Notes under the pieces: model-generated | The model's database searches: none | The model's input: the letters and a program-made list of their open reading frames with translations, nothing else | What the model was told of the DNA's origin: nothing | DNA from: Thermococcus sp. | Lineage (GTDB): Archaea > Methanobacteriota_B > Thermococci > Thermococcales > Thermococcaceae | DNA length: 64,000 nucleotides | NCBI RefSeq assembly: GCF_026991495.1 | Contig: NZ_JALXBJ010000088.1 | Location: 1 to 64,000 of the forward strand | Direction of reading: 5' to 3' | Part shown: piece by piece, positions 14,200 through 29,392 of the stretch | How positions within the stretch are numbered: the stretch's first letter is position 1 | How the letters are laid out: each line of letters begins with the position of its first letter | Made by a program: the position numbers and the translations under genes

Positions 14200-14275
14200 C
14201 CCCTTACTATTTTTAGGGCTTCAAAGTCAGCATCGAACGTGGCAATCAACACTAAGTGGGGAGGGTTAAATCTCT
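14196..14275 (-). pseudogene. C-terminal remnant of a PIN-domain (VapC-like) toxin
   Basis: Minus-strand frame ERFNPPHLVLIATFDADFEALKIVRG*; the IATFDADFE-type ending is typical of PIN proteins; in-frame stop just upstream, stop codon overlaps the iorA stop. Confidence 0.55.
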
Positions 14276-14276
14276 C

Positions 14277-14960
14277 TCATTCCCTCCATACTTCCAAGAC
14301 CATGTACCTTCTCACGAGCGGGTTTGGATACAGCTCCCAGCCGATTCCCTCAGTTTTTGCCTCAATCTCCCCGAAGAGACCGCCCTCGCGCGGATCGAGG
14401 CTCTCGCCGTAGATCTTTCCGGGGCGGAGCTCGACGCCCATGTATCTGGGAAGTCCAACAACGATCCTGCCTTCATTCCTTGCGCGCTCGATGGCCCACT
14501 TGGCCGTGTACAAACCGGAGTAAATCTCCGCTATCCGCACCGGGACGCTCGATTTCCCGATGGCTACCATCTCGATACCCGTTTCTTCCCAGAGCCTCTT
14601 TGCCAGTGGCTGGAGATCCTTAGCGAGGTCCTTCCACACCTCCTTTCCGCGGTCGGTTATGGTCAAAGCGTCTATTGTCGGCTCGTCGAGCTTCCTGACC
14701 TCTATGCCGCCTATCGTCGAGTCGAGGTGGATCACATCCGGTCTCAACTTCATCGCGAGTTCAACCGCGAGAAAGGCCTCGTCCCTCACGGCCTGCCTTC
14801 CGCTCATGTCGTAGTTGAAGGGATCGGCGTACCTGACCTCGCTGAGCGTCGCCGTCCTGTAGGGCTTCTCAACGAGGACGGCCACCGTCGCTATAAGCCC
14901 CACCGGGTTGTAGGCATCGTCGAGCAGGGCGCCACCGGTATCGGCTGCGATTATCCTCAT
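14277..14960 (-). CDS. DUF4152-family protein (RNase H-like fold suspected)
   Basis: MRIIAADTGGALLDDAYNPVGLIATVAVL...; archaeal conserved family. Confidence 0.7.
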   Translation of the reverse strand: MRIIAADTGGALLDDAYNPVGLIATVAVLVEKPYRTATLSEVRYADPFNYDMSGRQAVRDEAFLAVELAMKLRPDVIHLDSTIGGIEVRKLDEPTIDALTITDRGKEVWKDLAKDLQPLAKRLWEETGIEMVAIGKSSVPVRIAEIYSGLYTAKWAIERARNEGRIVVGLPRYMGVELRPGKIYGESLDPREGGLFGEIEAKTEGIGWELYPNPLVRRYMVLEVWRE

Positions 14961-14975
14961 AGAGCATCACCCATC

Positions 14976-15263
14976 TCAAAGCCCGGATTTGAGGTATCTA
15001 AGAAGCTCCTCAGCGCTCTCACGGGCAGGCTCTCCCCCAACTTCCTCCTCCAGGGGGAGCAGGAGGGCCCGCCTTTCAGGGAACCTTATTTTGAAGGACT
15101 CACGCGCCACCGCGGGGGACATCAAACGGCCCGTCTCCCTGTAAACGGCGGCCACGATGAGCATGCTGAGTGCCTCAAGCTCACCCGATGGTTCTTCAAG
15201 CTTTCTCTCAGCCATTTCCAAGAGGTTCCGGAACACACCGTCCGAGGCTCCCACCTTGTCCAC
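14976..15263 (-). CDS. Small helical hypothetical protein
   Basis: GTG start (VDKVGASDGVFRNLLEMAERK...) just downstream of TATA-like ttataa; ORF-track start is upstream of this promoter and unlikely. Confidence 0.6.
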   Translation of the reverse strand: MDKVGASDGVFRNLLEMAERKLEEPSGELEALSMLIVAAVYRETGRLMSPAVARESFKIRFPERRALLLPLEEEVGGEPARESAEELLRYLKSGL

Positions 15264-15307
15264 CTTAGCTTTATAACTCCAAGAGTGTAAAAAACCTAAC
15301 GGTGGCG

Positions 15308-23237: not shown

Positions 23238-23903
23238 GTGGCTCTCTTGGACTTCGAGCCCTTCAAAGTAGTTCCAGTTGGCTATGTGAGGAAGGACAAT
23301 AGTGAAACCTTCATCGAGATCCTCCCAGAGTTCAGGGAAGCTGTGGACGGCCTCCGCGAGGACGACTGGATAAAACTAATCCTCTGGTTCCACGAAAGCG
23401 AGGGGCCGAGGAGGAAAATCCTGAAGGTTCACCCCCACGGCAACCCGAAGAACCCTCTGACCGGGGTCTTCGCGACCCGCTCCCCCTACAGGCCCAACCC
23501 GATAGCCCTTTACACCGTCAGGATTCACTGCATAAGCGACGGAAAGCTCTACATAGACTGGATAGATGCCAAGAACGGAACCCCTGTTGTTGACATCAAA
23601 ATCTTCGTTGAGAGATACGATTGTCCAAAGGAGGTGCCCATAGAGGAGAGGGAAGCCCACATCAGGGAGGGCCGGATGATAGGCGAGGTGAACGTAATCC
23701 CGAGGAGGAGCGAGCACCTCGACGAGCTTGAGGAGGTTTCTCCAGAGGAATACGACGCGGTTATCCTTGAGATAGGGCCGAAAACGACGACGCTAACGGC
23801 CAAAGAACTCGTTGAACTGATAGATGGCCTAAAAGAGGTCTATGAGAACCTCCCCGTGGAGATAAAGGACAAGCTCAGAAGACGTGGAGGGCGCTCGCCT
23901 TGA
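23238..23903 (+). CDS. trmO: TrmO/TsaA-family tRNA methyltransferase
   Basis: VGYVRKDN...[32 protein letters not shown]...[13 protein letters not shown]. Confidence 0.88.
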
Positions 23904-24909
23904 ACCCCGCGTAGACCTCCTTCCCAGTTCTTATTCCAAGCTCAATGAGAGAGGAGCGCGTTATGAAGGCCGAAATGGACAGGCCCGAGGCGTTGAGGCG
24001 GAGCCTCACAACGGGCCCGAGCTCCTCAACTCCCTCAACCCTCGCCCTCAGGACGTTCCTGACGGAGGTTTTCATCGGTTGGGTGGAGATTATCACGTCT
24101 TCCGGGCGGAGGCCGACGCGGACTTTCCCCTCGGCCTCCACCGGGAGCTCTATCTCGATGCCGTTGATCCTTAGCTTCCTTCCAAAAGCGGTTCCCTCTA
24201 TGATGTTCTCGAAGCCGAGGAACCTCGCAACCCTCTCGCATTTCGGCCTCGAAAAGACATCCCTAACGTCCCCCACCTGAACGAGTCTTCCGTCGAGCAT
24301 TACCCCGACGCGGTCGCCCAGGCTGACGGCCTCCTCGAAGGAGTGGGTAACGTGCAAGGTCGTGAAGCCGAGCTCTTTCCTCCAGCGCTTCATCTCGTTG
24401 ATGAGCCTACCCCTCGTCTGGACGTCGAGGTTTGCGAAGGGCTCGTCTAGGAGTATCAGCGGGGGCTCGATGACGAGTGCCCTCGCGAGGGCAACGCGCT
24501 GCTGCTCGCCACCGCTCAGCGTTCTGGGCTTCCTCTTCAGGAGGCTCTCGATGCCGAGAACTTCAACTATCTCCCCAACTCTCCTCTCTATTTCAGCCTT
24601 CGGGAGCTTCCTGAGTTTGAGGCCAAAGGCTATGTTGTCGTAAACGCTCATGTTTGGGAAGAGGGCGTAGCTCTGGGGGACGTAGGCCAGACCCCTCTTC
24701 TCCGGTGGCCATCCGGTAACGTCAACCCCGTTCAGGAGTATCCTGCCGGAGTCAGGGCTTATGAGGCCGGCTATCACCTCAAGGAGAACGGTCTTCCCGG
24801 CACCGCTCGGCCCGAGAATTATGAAGTACTCGCCCTTCGAGACCGTGAATGAAACGCCCCTTAAGTGGAAGTCGCCGTAGTCCCTGGAGACATTTTGCAC
24901 GTTAAGCAT
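23875..24909 (-). CDS. wtpC: Tungstate/molybdate ABC transporter ATP-binding protein
   Basis: Walker A GPSGAGKT, signature LSGGEQQRV, Walker [13 protein letters not shown]-like C-terminus; same strand and order as wtpB and wtpA but separated from them. Confidence 0.88.
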
Positions 24910-24913
24910 GTTC

Positions 24914-25633
24914 TCACCCAGTGAGGAAATCGAGAAACGTTTTCAAACCGGATTCATTTAAAAATTCTTTCACAACTTTAGGGTTTTTCCTGATCATTTC
25001 CTCGATAAAGTTTCTATATAAGCCCGAAAGTGAGTCTCCTGTATAGTTTTTAGCGATTGCCAAGAGATGCATGATGTCTTTCGGCATGAGCTTTCTTCCC
25101 AGCTCTACAGTTAGTTGGCCTATCGAACCTTCGAGCTTTGAGAGGGTGCTCTCTTTTCTGGCGAGGAGGGCTATCAGAAGCTCAAGTTCTTTTTTGGCTT
25201 CGAGGTTTTGTTCATCAATGGTGACGTTCCCAACACCAAAGGGAACAACTTTTACCCCATTTACAAGGAGATAGCCATCCTTCACCTCCGACTCAAACTT
25301 TCTTAAAGTGCTCTTGGCCCAGTTTAAGACATCCTCCTCGGTATCAACGTCTCTAGCTACCCCCATGAGAGCAGGCAACTCCTCGAACCTGTTCAAGCCC
25401 TTAAAGATTGCACTAAGAGCCCTTTTGATTTTATCTTTTCCATTGGCATGTAATACGACTAACAGGGTTTCACCCTTAGTTAGGCAGATGGGTCTTGAGA
25501 TGTCGTTATCTCTCGAAAAGGGCAGGATTTCACATACCTCTCTGTTTTCTCTGAACCTGTAGAAGTGTTCTATCAGGGGAAGAAAGAAGCTAACATCAGT
25601 CCTGCCTTCCAAGAGCAAAATCCTCACTTCCAT
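24914..25633 (-). CDS. DUF3226-like / TOPRIM-like protein, partner of the upstream ATPase
   Basis: TOPRIM-like [16 protein letters not shown] (conserved Glu) and [14 protein letters not shown] (DxD); 3-nt gap to the ATPase gene. Confidence 0.7.
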
Positions 25634-25636
25634 ATC

Positions 25637-26662
25637 TCATCCCCTCAAGTCGACTCCAAGGGTTTCCCTAAGCTCCCTTGACTCCTCGAAGGTCTCTATT
25701 GACGCCTTAACGTCCCCGTCTTCCCGTCTCATATAAATGACTCGCCCATCAATGTTTTTCTTGAGGCCTTCACTTAGGAGGAGGTCCATTAACTCAAGAC
25801 TATGGGTCGTTAGGAATACCTGAACGTTGTTCTCTTTTGCCCCTTTAAGGAGGGTTTTAGCTATGACCCTCAAAGACTTGGGATGGTGGAAGGCCTCAGC
25901 CGAATCTATGAGGAGGTATCCCCCTCTCAAAAGTGACGACAGGAAGGCTATAATCATGGCGTTTTTGAATCCCTCCCCCATCAGGTAATAGGGATAAACG
26001 CCGTATTCTGTTTCAACGTGAAGTATCCACTTATTTGCTTTAAATAATGGGCTGAAACCTTCGACCTCTGGATAAGCCTCTCTAAGAATTCTCAAGCTGT
26101 CCTTCACGACTTTCTTCTCGTATGCGTAAGAATAAAGGCTCTCAACGTATCCAAACTTACGAAGGGTGAAGGGAGTTACAAACTCAAAATTTAGATTGGG
26201 GTCAAACTTTGAGGAGAGCAGGAACGAAGACAGCACACTCGAATCAACGAGATTGTGCATTTGAAATCCGGTATCTAATTTTGGTGACTTTTCATCAACC
26301 TCTCTCAGCACAATGTGAAAAGTTGGTAATGCATTAATGCCTTTGACCTCTTTTTTTAATGTGAGTATCCAGGGGATACCATTCTGCACCGCCTCAATCC
26401 TCACAAATTCGGCCCCTATGTGGAACAAATCTTCTACTGCCTGAGGCCCGTACCACCCCCTCCACATCAGAATCTCCTGAAGGAGACTCCTGAATGATTG
26501 AATTCCCCCGAAGGCACCCAAAAGAAGGGATAACCCCTCAAGTACACTCGACTTGCCCGCGTTGTTTTTACCAGCAATAACATTAACTTGGCCAAGATTG
26601 TTGAGTTTCAATTCCATTATACCCCTAAAATTCTCAATTGTAAGAGATGTTATCATGAGCAT
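25637..26662 (-). CDS. AAA ATPase (OLD/RecF-like, AAA15/AAA21 type)
   Basis: MLMITSLTIENFRGIMELKLNNLGQVNVIAGKNNAGKSSVLEGL (Walker A); YLLIDSAEAFHHPKSLR and QVFLTTHSLELMDLLL. Confidence 0.85.
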   Translation of the reverse strand: MLMITSLTIENFRGIMELKLNNLGQVNVIAGKNNAGKSSVLEGLSLLLGAFGGIQSFRSLLQEILMWRGWYGPQAVEDLFHIGAEFVRIEAVQNGIPWILTLKKEVKGINALPTFHIVLREVDEKSPKLDTGFQMHNLVDSSVLSSFLLSSKFDPNLNFEFVTPFTLRKFGYVESLYSYAYEKKVVKDSLRILREAYPEVEGFSPLFKANKWILHVETEYGVYPYYLMGEGFKNAMIIAFLSSLLRGGYLLIDSAEAFHHPKSLRVIAKTLLKGAKENNVQVFLTTHSLELMDLLLSEGLKKNIDGRVIYMRREDGDVKASIETFEESRELRETLGVDLRG

Positions 26663-26705: not shown

Positions 26706-27452
26706 TCAAGCATTTTTGGCCCTCCCGACGAGCCAGCGCAGGAGCACGAAGATTCCGAGGCTCAGTGAGACCATCAAAACCGCTATTGGGCGCGATGACC
26801 TGAGGCCGTAGTTGTTGAAGTACTCAAGGATGAGAACCTGGGCCGTCTTCGGGTAGTAGGCAACAACGAGTATTGCACCGACCTCGCTGACCGCTCTCGC
26901 CCACGTCATTATCGCACCGCTCGCTATGCTCGGGAAGGCGAGGGGCAGGGCTACCGAGGCGAAGGCCCTCAGCCGGGACGCTCCGAGGGTTCTGGCAACG
27001 CCCTCAAGCTTCTCGTCTACCGCTGAAAAGCCGTCCCTTGAGGCGTTTATAGTGAAGGGGGCGGAGACAAAGAGCATGGCGGAGATTATGCCGAGGTAGT
27101 TGTCGAGGATGGCCCTTGAAAAGGTCACGAGGAGCATTATGCCCACGACCGAGTGGGGGATAACGATGGGGACGTCAATGAGGGCCTGCACAAAGCTCTT
27201 TCCCGGGAACTCTTCCCTAGCTAGAACGTAGCCGAGGGGAACACCGAAGAGAAGGGCTATTAAAGCTGTCGCCGTCGCCGTTGCGAGGGAGTTCCTGAGG
27301 GCTTCGAGGACGAGGGGGTCGTGGAGGGTCTTTACGAGCATACCGGCGTCAGAGGCCTGCTTGAGGAAGATGACCGCTATGGGCAGGGCTATGTAGAGAA
27401 TAAGGAAAGTCCCGAGGGTTGCGAAGAGGTAGAGGATGTAGTCGCGCCTCAT
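26706..27452 (-). CDS. wtpB: Tungstate/molybdate ABC transporter permease
   Basis: BPD permease, multi-TM with EAA-like loop [24 protein letters not shown]. Confidence 0.88.
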
Positions 27453-27608
27453 CCCTAAACGCTTTGAGGAAAGTTATTTATGATTTTCGGGGGTGTTAAA
27501 CTAGAATGTTCAACAAGATTTCCTCCCCATTGCCATGGGTGGTATCGGGACCTTTGTAGGGGCAAAACTTTTATGTTTGTCGGACATATGGAACCATCGG
27601 TGAGCCAT

Positions 27609-27893
27609 ATGGGAACCAGCGTTAAGATTACCGCGAGGATACCACCGGCCCTCGCGGCAGAAATAGACCGCCTAGTCAATGCAGGATACTACTCAAACAG
27701 GAGCGAGGTCATCAAGGAGGCCCTCCGCGATTTTCTCGTAAGGAAGAGGGCCCTTATCGAGGAGGCCTCAGATGAGGAGTTCGTCCGCCTTGCAAAGAGG
27801 ACTATCGAGCCCCTTCTCGCTGAAGACTGGGAGAGCGAGGCGGATGAGTACTGGGATAAAATCACGGGTGTGAGGTATGAGCCCGAGGTGTGA
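27609..27893 (+). CDS. Ribbon-helix-helix (CopG/MetJ-type) antitoxin
   Basis: MGTSVKITARIPPALAAEIDRLVNAGYYSNRSEVIKEALRDFLVRK; overlaps the MazF-like gene. ATG at 27588 is an alternative start. Confidence 0.85.
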   Translation: MGTSVKITARIPPALAAEIDRLVNAGYYSNRSEVIKEALRDFLVRKRALIEEASDEEFVRLAKRTIEPLLAEDWESEADEYWDKITGVRYEPEV

Positions 27894-28281
27894 GGCTCCA
27901 AGAGGGCTGAGACAGTGGGAGGTAGTCCTTCTCGAGTTTCCCTTTTCGGACTCGTCAAAGAAAAAGCTCCGGCCCGTTCTGGTGCTCTCGAACTCAGACT
28001 TCAACCGGATTAGCAACAGCGTGGTCGTCTGCCAGATAACTTCCAACCTTTCAAGCGGGTTCAGGGAGTACAACGTTTTCATAGAGCCCAGTGATGTGTG
28101 CCTTTACGGCGATGCCTTCATGCGTCCCAGTCTTGTAAAGCCTTACATGGTGTTCTCTGTGTCCAAGAGGGAGGTTCACTTCAAGGTCGGAGTCCTCTCA
28201 GAGGAGAAGGCGGATGAAGTTAGGGAAAGACTCCGAAAGCTCTTTGATTATCGGGTCTTCACTGTAGAGCAGGGAAAATAG
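27877..28281 (+). CDS. PemK/MazF-family endoribonuclease toxin
   Basis: QWEVVLLEFPFSDSSKKKLRPVLVLSNSDFN...VVVCQITSN...MRPSLVKPYMVFSVSKREV. Confidence 0.88.
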   Translation: MSPRCEAPRGLRQWEVVLLEFPFSDSSKKKLRPVLVLSNSDFNRISNSVVVCQITSNLSSGFREYNVFIEPSDVCLYGDAFMRPSLVKPYMVFSVSKREVHFKVGVLSEEKADEVRERLRKLFDYRVFTVEQGK

Positions 28282-28312
28282 GGGAAATTAACGGGGAATT
28301 GGGATAAAAATC

Positions 28313-29392
<1,080 letters not shown>

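Follow-up and report, generated by a model that had tools for sequence, protein, structure and literature searches.

The operon for a tungstate transporter in a Thermococcus genome raises the question of how a toxin–antitoxin (TA) pair came to lie in antisense between two of its genes, wtpA and wtpB, and how the separated transporter genes may be transcribed. We analyzed the 64,000-nucleotide stretch of DNA carrying this locus (hereafter, the window) together with the corresponding loci of its relatives.

Gene content of the interrupted operon

The gap in the Thermococcus window extends from the wtpA stop (28313) to the wtpB start (27452), i.e., positions 27453-28312 (860 bp), and RHH and PemK are the only genes inside it. 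Both TA genes are on the plus strand; wtpA and wtpB are on the minus strand. The genes were assigned as follows.

23875-24909, minus strand: wtpC, tungstate transporter ATPase (NCBIfam NF040840 equivalog, 547; cut-off 440)
26706-27452, minus strand: wtpB, tungstate permease (NCBIfam NF040839 equivalog, 347.5; cut-off 340)
27609-27893, plus strand: RHH (ribbon-helix-helix) antitoxin, 94 aa (Pfam RHH_1, E = 3e-8; RHH_8, 7e-8)
27877-28281, plus strand: PemK/MazF-family toxin, 134 aa (Pfam PemK_toxin PF02452, E = 5e-19, full-length match)
28313-29359, minus strand: wtpA, tungstate-binding protein (NCBIfam PRK04168/TIGR03730 equivalog, 503 bits; cut-off 355)

The Pfam matches and coordinates confirmed the claim of the earlier note that an RHH/PemK-MazF pair lies in antisense between wtpA and wtpB, and the objection that genes were misassigned fails, as the TA and wtp assignments are correct according to Pfam and NCBIfam. 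All three transporter subunits scored above the equivalog cut-offs of WtpABC and are encoded in the order A-B-C.

The RHH and PemK reading frames overlap by 17 nt, and RHH is partnered with PemK at 14 further loci, one of them on a plasmid. As expected for a type II TA system, the predicted DNA-binding antitoxin is encoded directly upstream in what appears to be the same transcription unit. R32 and T55 of the toxin aligned with R25 and T48 of EndoA (phmmer alignment to EndoA 4me7/4mdx), which we take to be catalytic residues; the family match and these retained equivalents are consistent with a type II MazF/PemK toxin, and PemK would, by analogy with its family, cleave RNA. The RHH frame is open further 5', to an ATG at 27480, and homology, the Shine-Dalgarno site, and the promoter point to ATG 27609 as the probable start. 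An assembly artefact was ruled out by the same arrangement in the complete one-contig genome G008 and by the pairing of both flanks with locus L099. No integrase, transposase, tRNA target, or terminal repeats were found at the insert, which thus lacks the marks of an integrated mobile element; boundary alignment with G008 indicated no evident repeat, and the single tRNA of the window is located at 17 kb.

Occupants of the wtpA/wtpB joint in relatives

The synteny comparison of wtp loci that the earlier note had proposed covered 48 loci with both a readable wtpA end and a readable wtpB start. No insert was present in 38 of these, where the joint mostly measured 0-66 bp (L112 and L117, with somewhat longer joints, were counted as lacking an insert). 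The remaining 10 of the 48 carried more than 250 bp extra, representing at least four kinds of genes. The occupants were as follows.

Window and G008, antisense: RHH/PemK pair
G011, antisense: AbrB-type antitoxin and PIN toxin (VapC)
G020, G002, G022, G026, L107, and L111/G016, sense: PEMT/ICMT-like membrane methyltransferase
L114: AAA_14-DUF4143 ATPase and a degraded methyltransferase

In G006 the contig stops at this joint, within a gene for a PEMT/ICMT-like methyltransferase. This methyltransferase, of approximately 160 aa, is found in the sense orientation in several clades (L064, L066, L075, L077, L107, and L111), and its start-stop overlap with wtpB is frequent. The operon of G009 is split: wtpA and wtpBC are approximately 154 kb apart, with a PIN-domain gene after wtpA (L074 and L142), providing a natural test of independent wtpA and wtpBC expression. 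Upstream of the operon, approximately 1.5-1.8 kb extra was observed between an HD-domain gene and wtpA in L063, L073, L079, L081, L084, and L087.

Origin of the TA pair

The nearest relative of the window is L099, whose WtpABC is 88% identical and whose operon is uninterrupted, which marks the pair as a recent arrival. In the tree of WtpA+B+C the window and L099 formed a fully supported sister pair, with G008 branching elsewhere; a host clade of the window and G008 was rejected (AU p = 2.8e-10). The TA proteins of these two were nevertheless 90-92% identical. Fourfold-site identity between the window and G008 was 0.76-0.78 in the TA genes versus 0.34-0.57 in the flanking genes, and even between the window and its sister L099 it was 0.55-0.65, below the TA value. 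The similarity between the window and G008 spans the TA promoter to the toxin stop. Because TA fourfold-site identity exceeds that of the flanks between non-sister hosts, the TA most likely entered one or both lineages after their split, at the same joint. The earlier note had named a TA position ancestral in all relatives as the finding that would speak against it; this does not hold, given the intact operon of the sister L099, the host tree, and the fourfold-site identity.

Alternatively, the joint in the crown group may have held a gene or TA, with the intact operons arising by deletion. This very unlikely history would fit the PEMT/ICMT-like gene found in several clades, degraded in L114 and with a possible remnant in L112, and parsimony, with 8 state changes on the tree at the joint, leaves polarity unfixed. 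However, wtpA-wtpB is intact in the Archaeoglobaceae outgroups and in deep-branching Thermococcales and, for the TA, the excess fourfold-site identity between non-sister hosts opposes vertical descent, adding to the departure from the host tree already indicated.

Plasmids of T. nautili and Methanothermococcus carry relatives of the toxin, and the same TA family also occurs at unrelated loci. Phage and viral-contig collections gave no match, and a virus-borne cassette was rejected, though plasmid relatives exist.

A conserved palindrome in the TA promoter

Fifteen RHH/PemK loci, picked by protein similarity alone, were aligned. The predicted promoter elements of the window are as follows.

27568-27575, plus strand: TA promoter, TATA-like box CTTTTATG directly preceded by an A-rich BRE (15-locus alignment)
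27578-27586, plus strand: palindrome TGTCGGACA in the TA promoter, predicted operator for RHH (15-locus alignment and genome scan)
27599-27603, plus strand: GGTGA, antitoxin ribosome-binding site (GGT conserved in 15/15 aligned loci)

GTCNGACA was present in 15/15 loci, all of which had, with minor departures, the order A-rich BRE, TATA-like box, TGTCNGACA, GGTGA, and start codon; the palindrome reads CGTC in one locus. When 41 genomes were scanned for this pattern, every hit was at a PemK locus, and the reversed control gave 0. The palindrome also occurs on the T. nautili plasmid NZ_OX281346.1 (L193:2181-2189); it was missing where toxins of this family are paired with another, non-RHH antitoxin and absent from the Methanothermococcus plasmid copy. 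As the nonamer alone is expected approximately 0.5 times by chance in the window, where it is present in a single copy, the case for an operator was weighted on the cross-locus comparison rather than on that single copy.

An operator-like palindrome in its own promoter is a further type II feature of the pair, seen here as TGTCNGACA between the TATA-like box and the Shine-Dalgarno site. RHH binding at this position, between TATA and the expected transcription start, would block initiation. The literature searched contained no description of TGTCNGACA as an operator; the motif provides a simple handle on the archaeal RHH/PemK family.

Transcription across the joint

Two minus-strand elements in the gap bear on the transcription of wtpA and wtpB.

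27475-27482, minus strand: predicted separate promoter for wtpB, TATA-like box (CATAAATA) and A-rich BRE (7/8 consensus, -30 from the wtpB ATG)
28303-28312, minus strand: T-tract just past the wtpA stop, GATTTTTATC, probable 3' end or termination element

TTTT occurs no more than 6 nt from the wtpA stop in 40/49 loci, compared with 8% of long-ORF stops in control regions, and the T-tract is retained in both the window and G008. In G036 and G003, wtpA overlaps wtpB and no T-tract occurs right past the wtpA stop. The sequence TTTTTAT also matches TTWTAW, the TATA motif of Thermococcus onnurineus (PMC5316973), so it could be the wtpB promoter in intact operons. Reading the T-tract as a 3' end is nevertheless favored over reading it as a promoter, because its distance is fixed to the wtpA stop and variable to wtpB, and because an A-rich BRE is absent at TTTTTAT. 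Most interrupted loci have a TATA-like box with 7-8/8 matches approximately 30 bp 5' of the wtpB start, whereas most intact loci lack one and mostly have the T-tract only. A clear wtpB promoter was not found in the sense-insert loci G022, G026, and L107.

The iron ABC transporter operon afuABC of Methanococcus maripaludis has a terminator between its first and second genes that was shown to matter for function (PMC10450193). From the T-tract, the TATA-like boxes of wtpB, and this terminator, we think that the joint was already a transcription boundary before the insertion, so that the insert would cost little. It is likely that wtpA and wtpB are transcribed separately. The reasoning that wtpA would not share a simple mRNA with wtpB/wtpC, put forward before from gene orientation, appears sound and is strengthened by the T-tract, the promoter-like sequence of wtpB, and the split operon of G009. 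Tungstate is unmentioned in the main text of the two Thermococcus start-site papers.

A functional coupling of the two systems was also considered, under which the TA would have been selected at this site for tuning tungstate uptake, be it through RHH, its promoter, or its antisense RNA, or for a response of the toxin to tungsten starvation. The PemK and VapBC inserts are both antisense to wtp, and the TA and wtpB share a divergent 156-bp region; on the TA strand, the first T-run occurs 113 nt beyond the PemK stop, making antisense transcription into wtpA possible. Such coupling is nonetheless highly improbable, given that the window has only one operator copy, approximately 95 bp from the TATA-like box of wtpB, that the same TA family resides at unrelated loci and on a plasmid, and that the TA is missing from most relatives. 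Direct control of wtpB by RHH was rejected, as there is no second operator near wtpB.

The wtpB/wtpC break and the tolerance of the joints

The joint between wtpB and wtpC is filled by two genes, which confirmed that one transporter carries two accessory insertions, as had been noticed earlier.

24914-25633, minus strand: DUF3226 protein (Pfam PF11536, 6e-10)
25637-26662, minus strand: AAA ATPase, PDC-M38A-like (PADLOC)

The pair is closest to the PDC-M38 candidate defence pair in PADLOC, where the best matches of 24914-26662 were PDC-M38A (7.5e-36), AbiLi, and AriA. ATPase/DUF3226 pairs occupy this joint in 8 loci (the window, G003, G011, L104, L111, L114, L118, and L119) and are strongly diverged (41-76%). 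In intact operons wtpC overlaps wtpB; that the pair is nonetheless present in 8 loci makes wtpB/wtpC a more unusual insertion site than wtpA/wtpB.

As a control, insertions at operon joints were counted in 20 genomes, using two neighbourhoods. None was seen where the genes overlap, and at least one occurred at each of 3 joints whose genes are separated by a small positive gap. The anchor 14256-15290 was dropped from this control as poorly conserved: it encodes a 344 aa protein whose C-terminal third (past approximately residue 240) was without counterpart in most congeners in this search, a difference that may reflect a fusion or frameshift. VapC-type PIN-domain genes beside an operon joint near sufB also vary between genomes (L178, L191, and L176), a further site of TA gene gain and loss. 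The wtpA/wtpB joint has received different genes repeatedly and independently, and the earlier note's suggestion of a tolerated hot spot holds as regards repeated use and at least four kinds of insert, although a rate far above that of similar joints would be a larger claim than this control supports. Since other non-overlapping joints also gain insertions, "insertion-tolerant joint" is safer wording than "hot spot".

Both joints are filled in the window and G011, each with a TA plus ATPase/DUF3226, and also in L111 and L114. Such co-occurrence would be expected if the wtp operon were a preferred harbour, nucleating a defence island, where defence-like genes such as PDC-M38-like ATPase/DUF3226 and TA pairs gather, and Fisher's test without relatedness correction gave p = 0.02. 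With relatedness considered, however, there were too few independent pairs (tree-aware pairs, median p = 0.25), and the link between both breaks is suggestive only. As the methyltransferase inserts are not defence genes and control joints gain genes too, a preferred harbour is unlikely.

Proposed model and comparison with known systems

Here, we propose that a self-contained type II TA was acquired horizontally at a pre-existing transcription boundary of wtp and that the transporter works as two units, a model we consider probable. A cassette consisting of BRE/TATA, the TGTCNGACA operator, RHH, and the PemK/MazF RNase would have been gained between wtpA and wtpB, its settlement being possible since the joint was an existing boundary. 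RHH, probably with the toxin, would bind the operator between TATA and the transcription start and repress the pair. This would make the pair an autoregulated module for addiction or stress, with RNA cleavage by any free PemK. The wtpA mRNA would terminate at the T-tract, ahead of the insert, and the 156 bp separating wtpB from the divergent TA would contain the promoter for wtpB-wtpC. In this way the transporter could function as two transcription units, and a tungsten-specific role of the TA would be unnecessary.

The locus provides a replicated example of a metal-uptake operon taken apart with its genes kept: two non-sister Thermococcus lineages share the same antisense TA, a third holds another TA class, and the operon of a fourth is fully split. 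The locus also suggests a testable rule, that operon-internal transcription boundaries are places where selfish cassettes can settle. More broadly, and with considerable doubt, archaeal ABC operons may offer a landing site at the joint of their binding-protein and permease genes. If true, a conserved internal terminator at this joint would make insertion by selfish or defence cassettes nearly cost-free, and TA and defence genes would preferentially gather there and rewire the transporter into two units. A TA insertion in wtp was not found in the literature searched.

Among known systems, 81 MazF-RHH pairs have been listed (Makarova et al. 2009, PMC2701414). The window pair resembles MazF/PemK-RHH type II pairs in having RHH first and the toxin second, their overlap, a promoter-proximal palindrome, and a scattered mobile distribution, but differs in its antisense position inside a transporter operon and its conserved TGTCNGACA operator. 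The importer passes the equivalog cut-offs of the WtpABC tungstate ABC transporter and keeps the A-B-C order, but both of its joints are interrupted in the window genome. Like afuABC of M. maripaludis (PMC10450193), it is an archaeal ABC operon with a probable boundary between its first two genes (afuA and afuB in that operon), although the wtp boundary is deduced from the conserved T-tract only and the wtp joint also hosts inserted genes. The locus with VapBC (AbrB-PIN) in G011 shares the antisense TA at wtpA/wtpB and ATPase/DUF3226 at wtpB/wtpC; its toxin and antitoxin families are unrelated to those of the window, and the two pairs were therefore acquired independently. Thus, cassette and importer alike are ordinary representatives of known families, the cassette in an unusual seat, and the locus is a well-documented new example.
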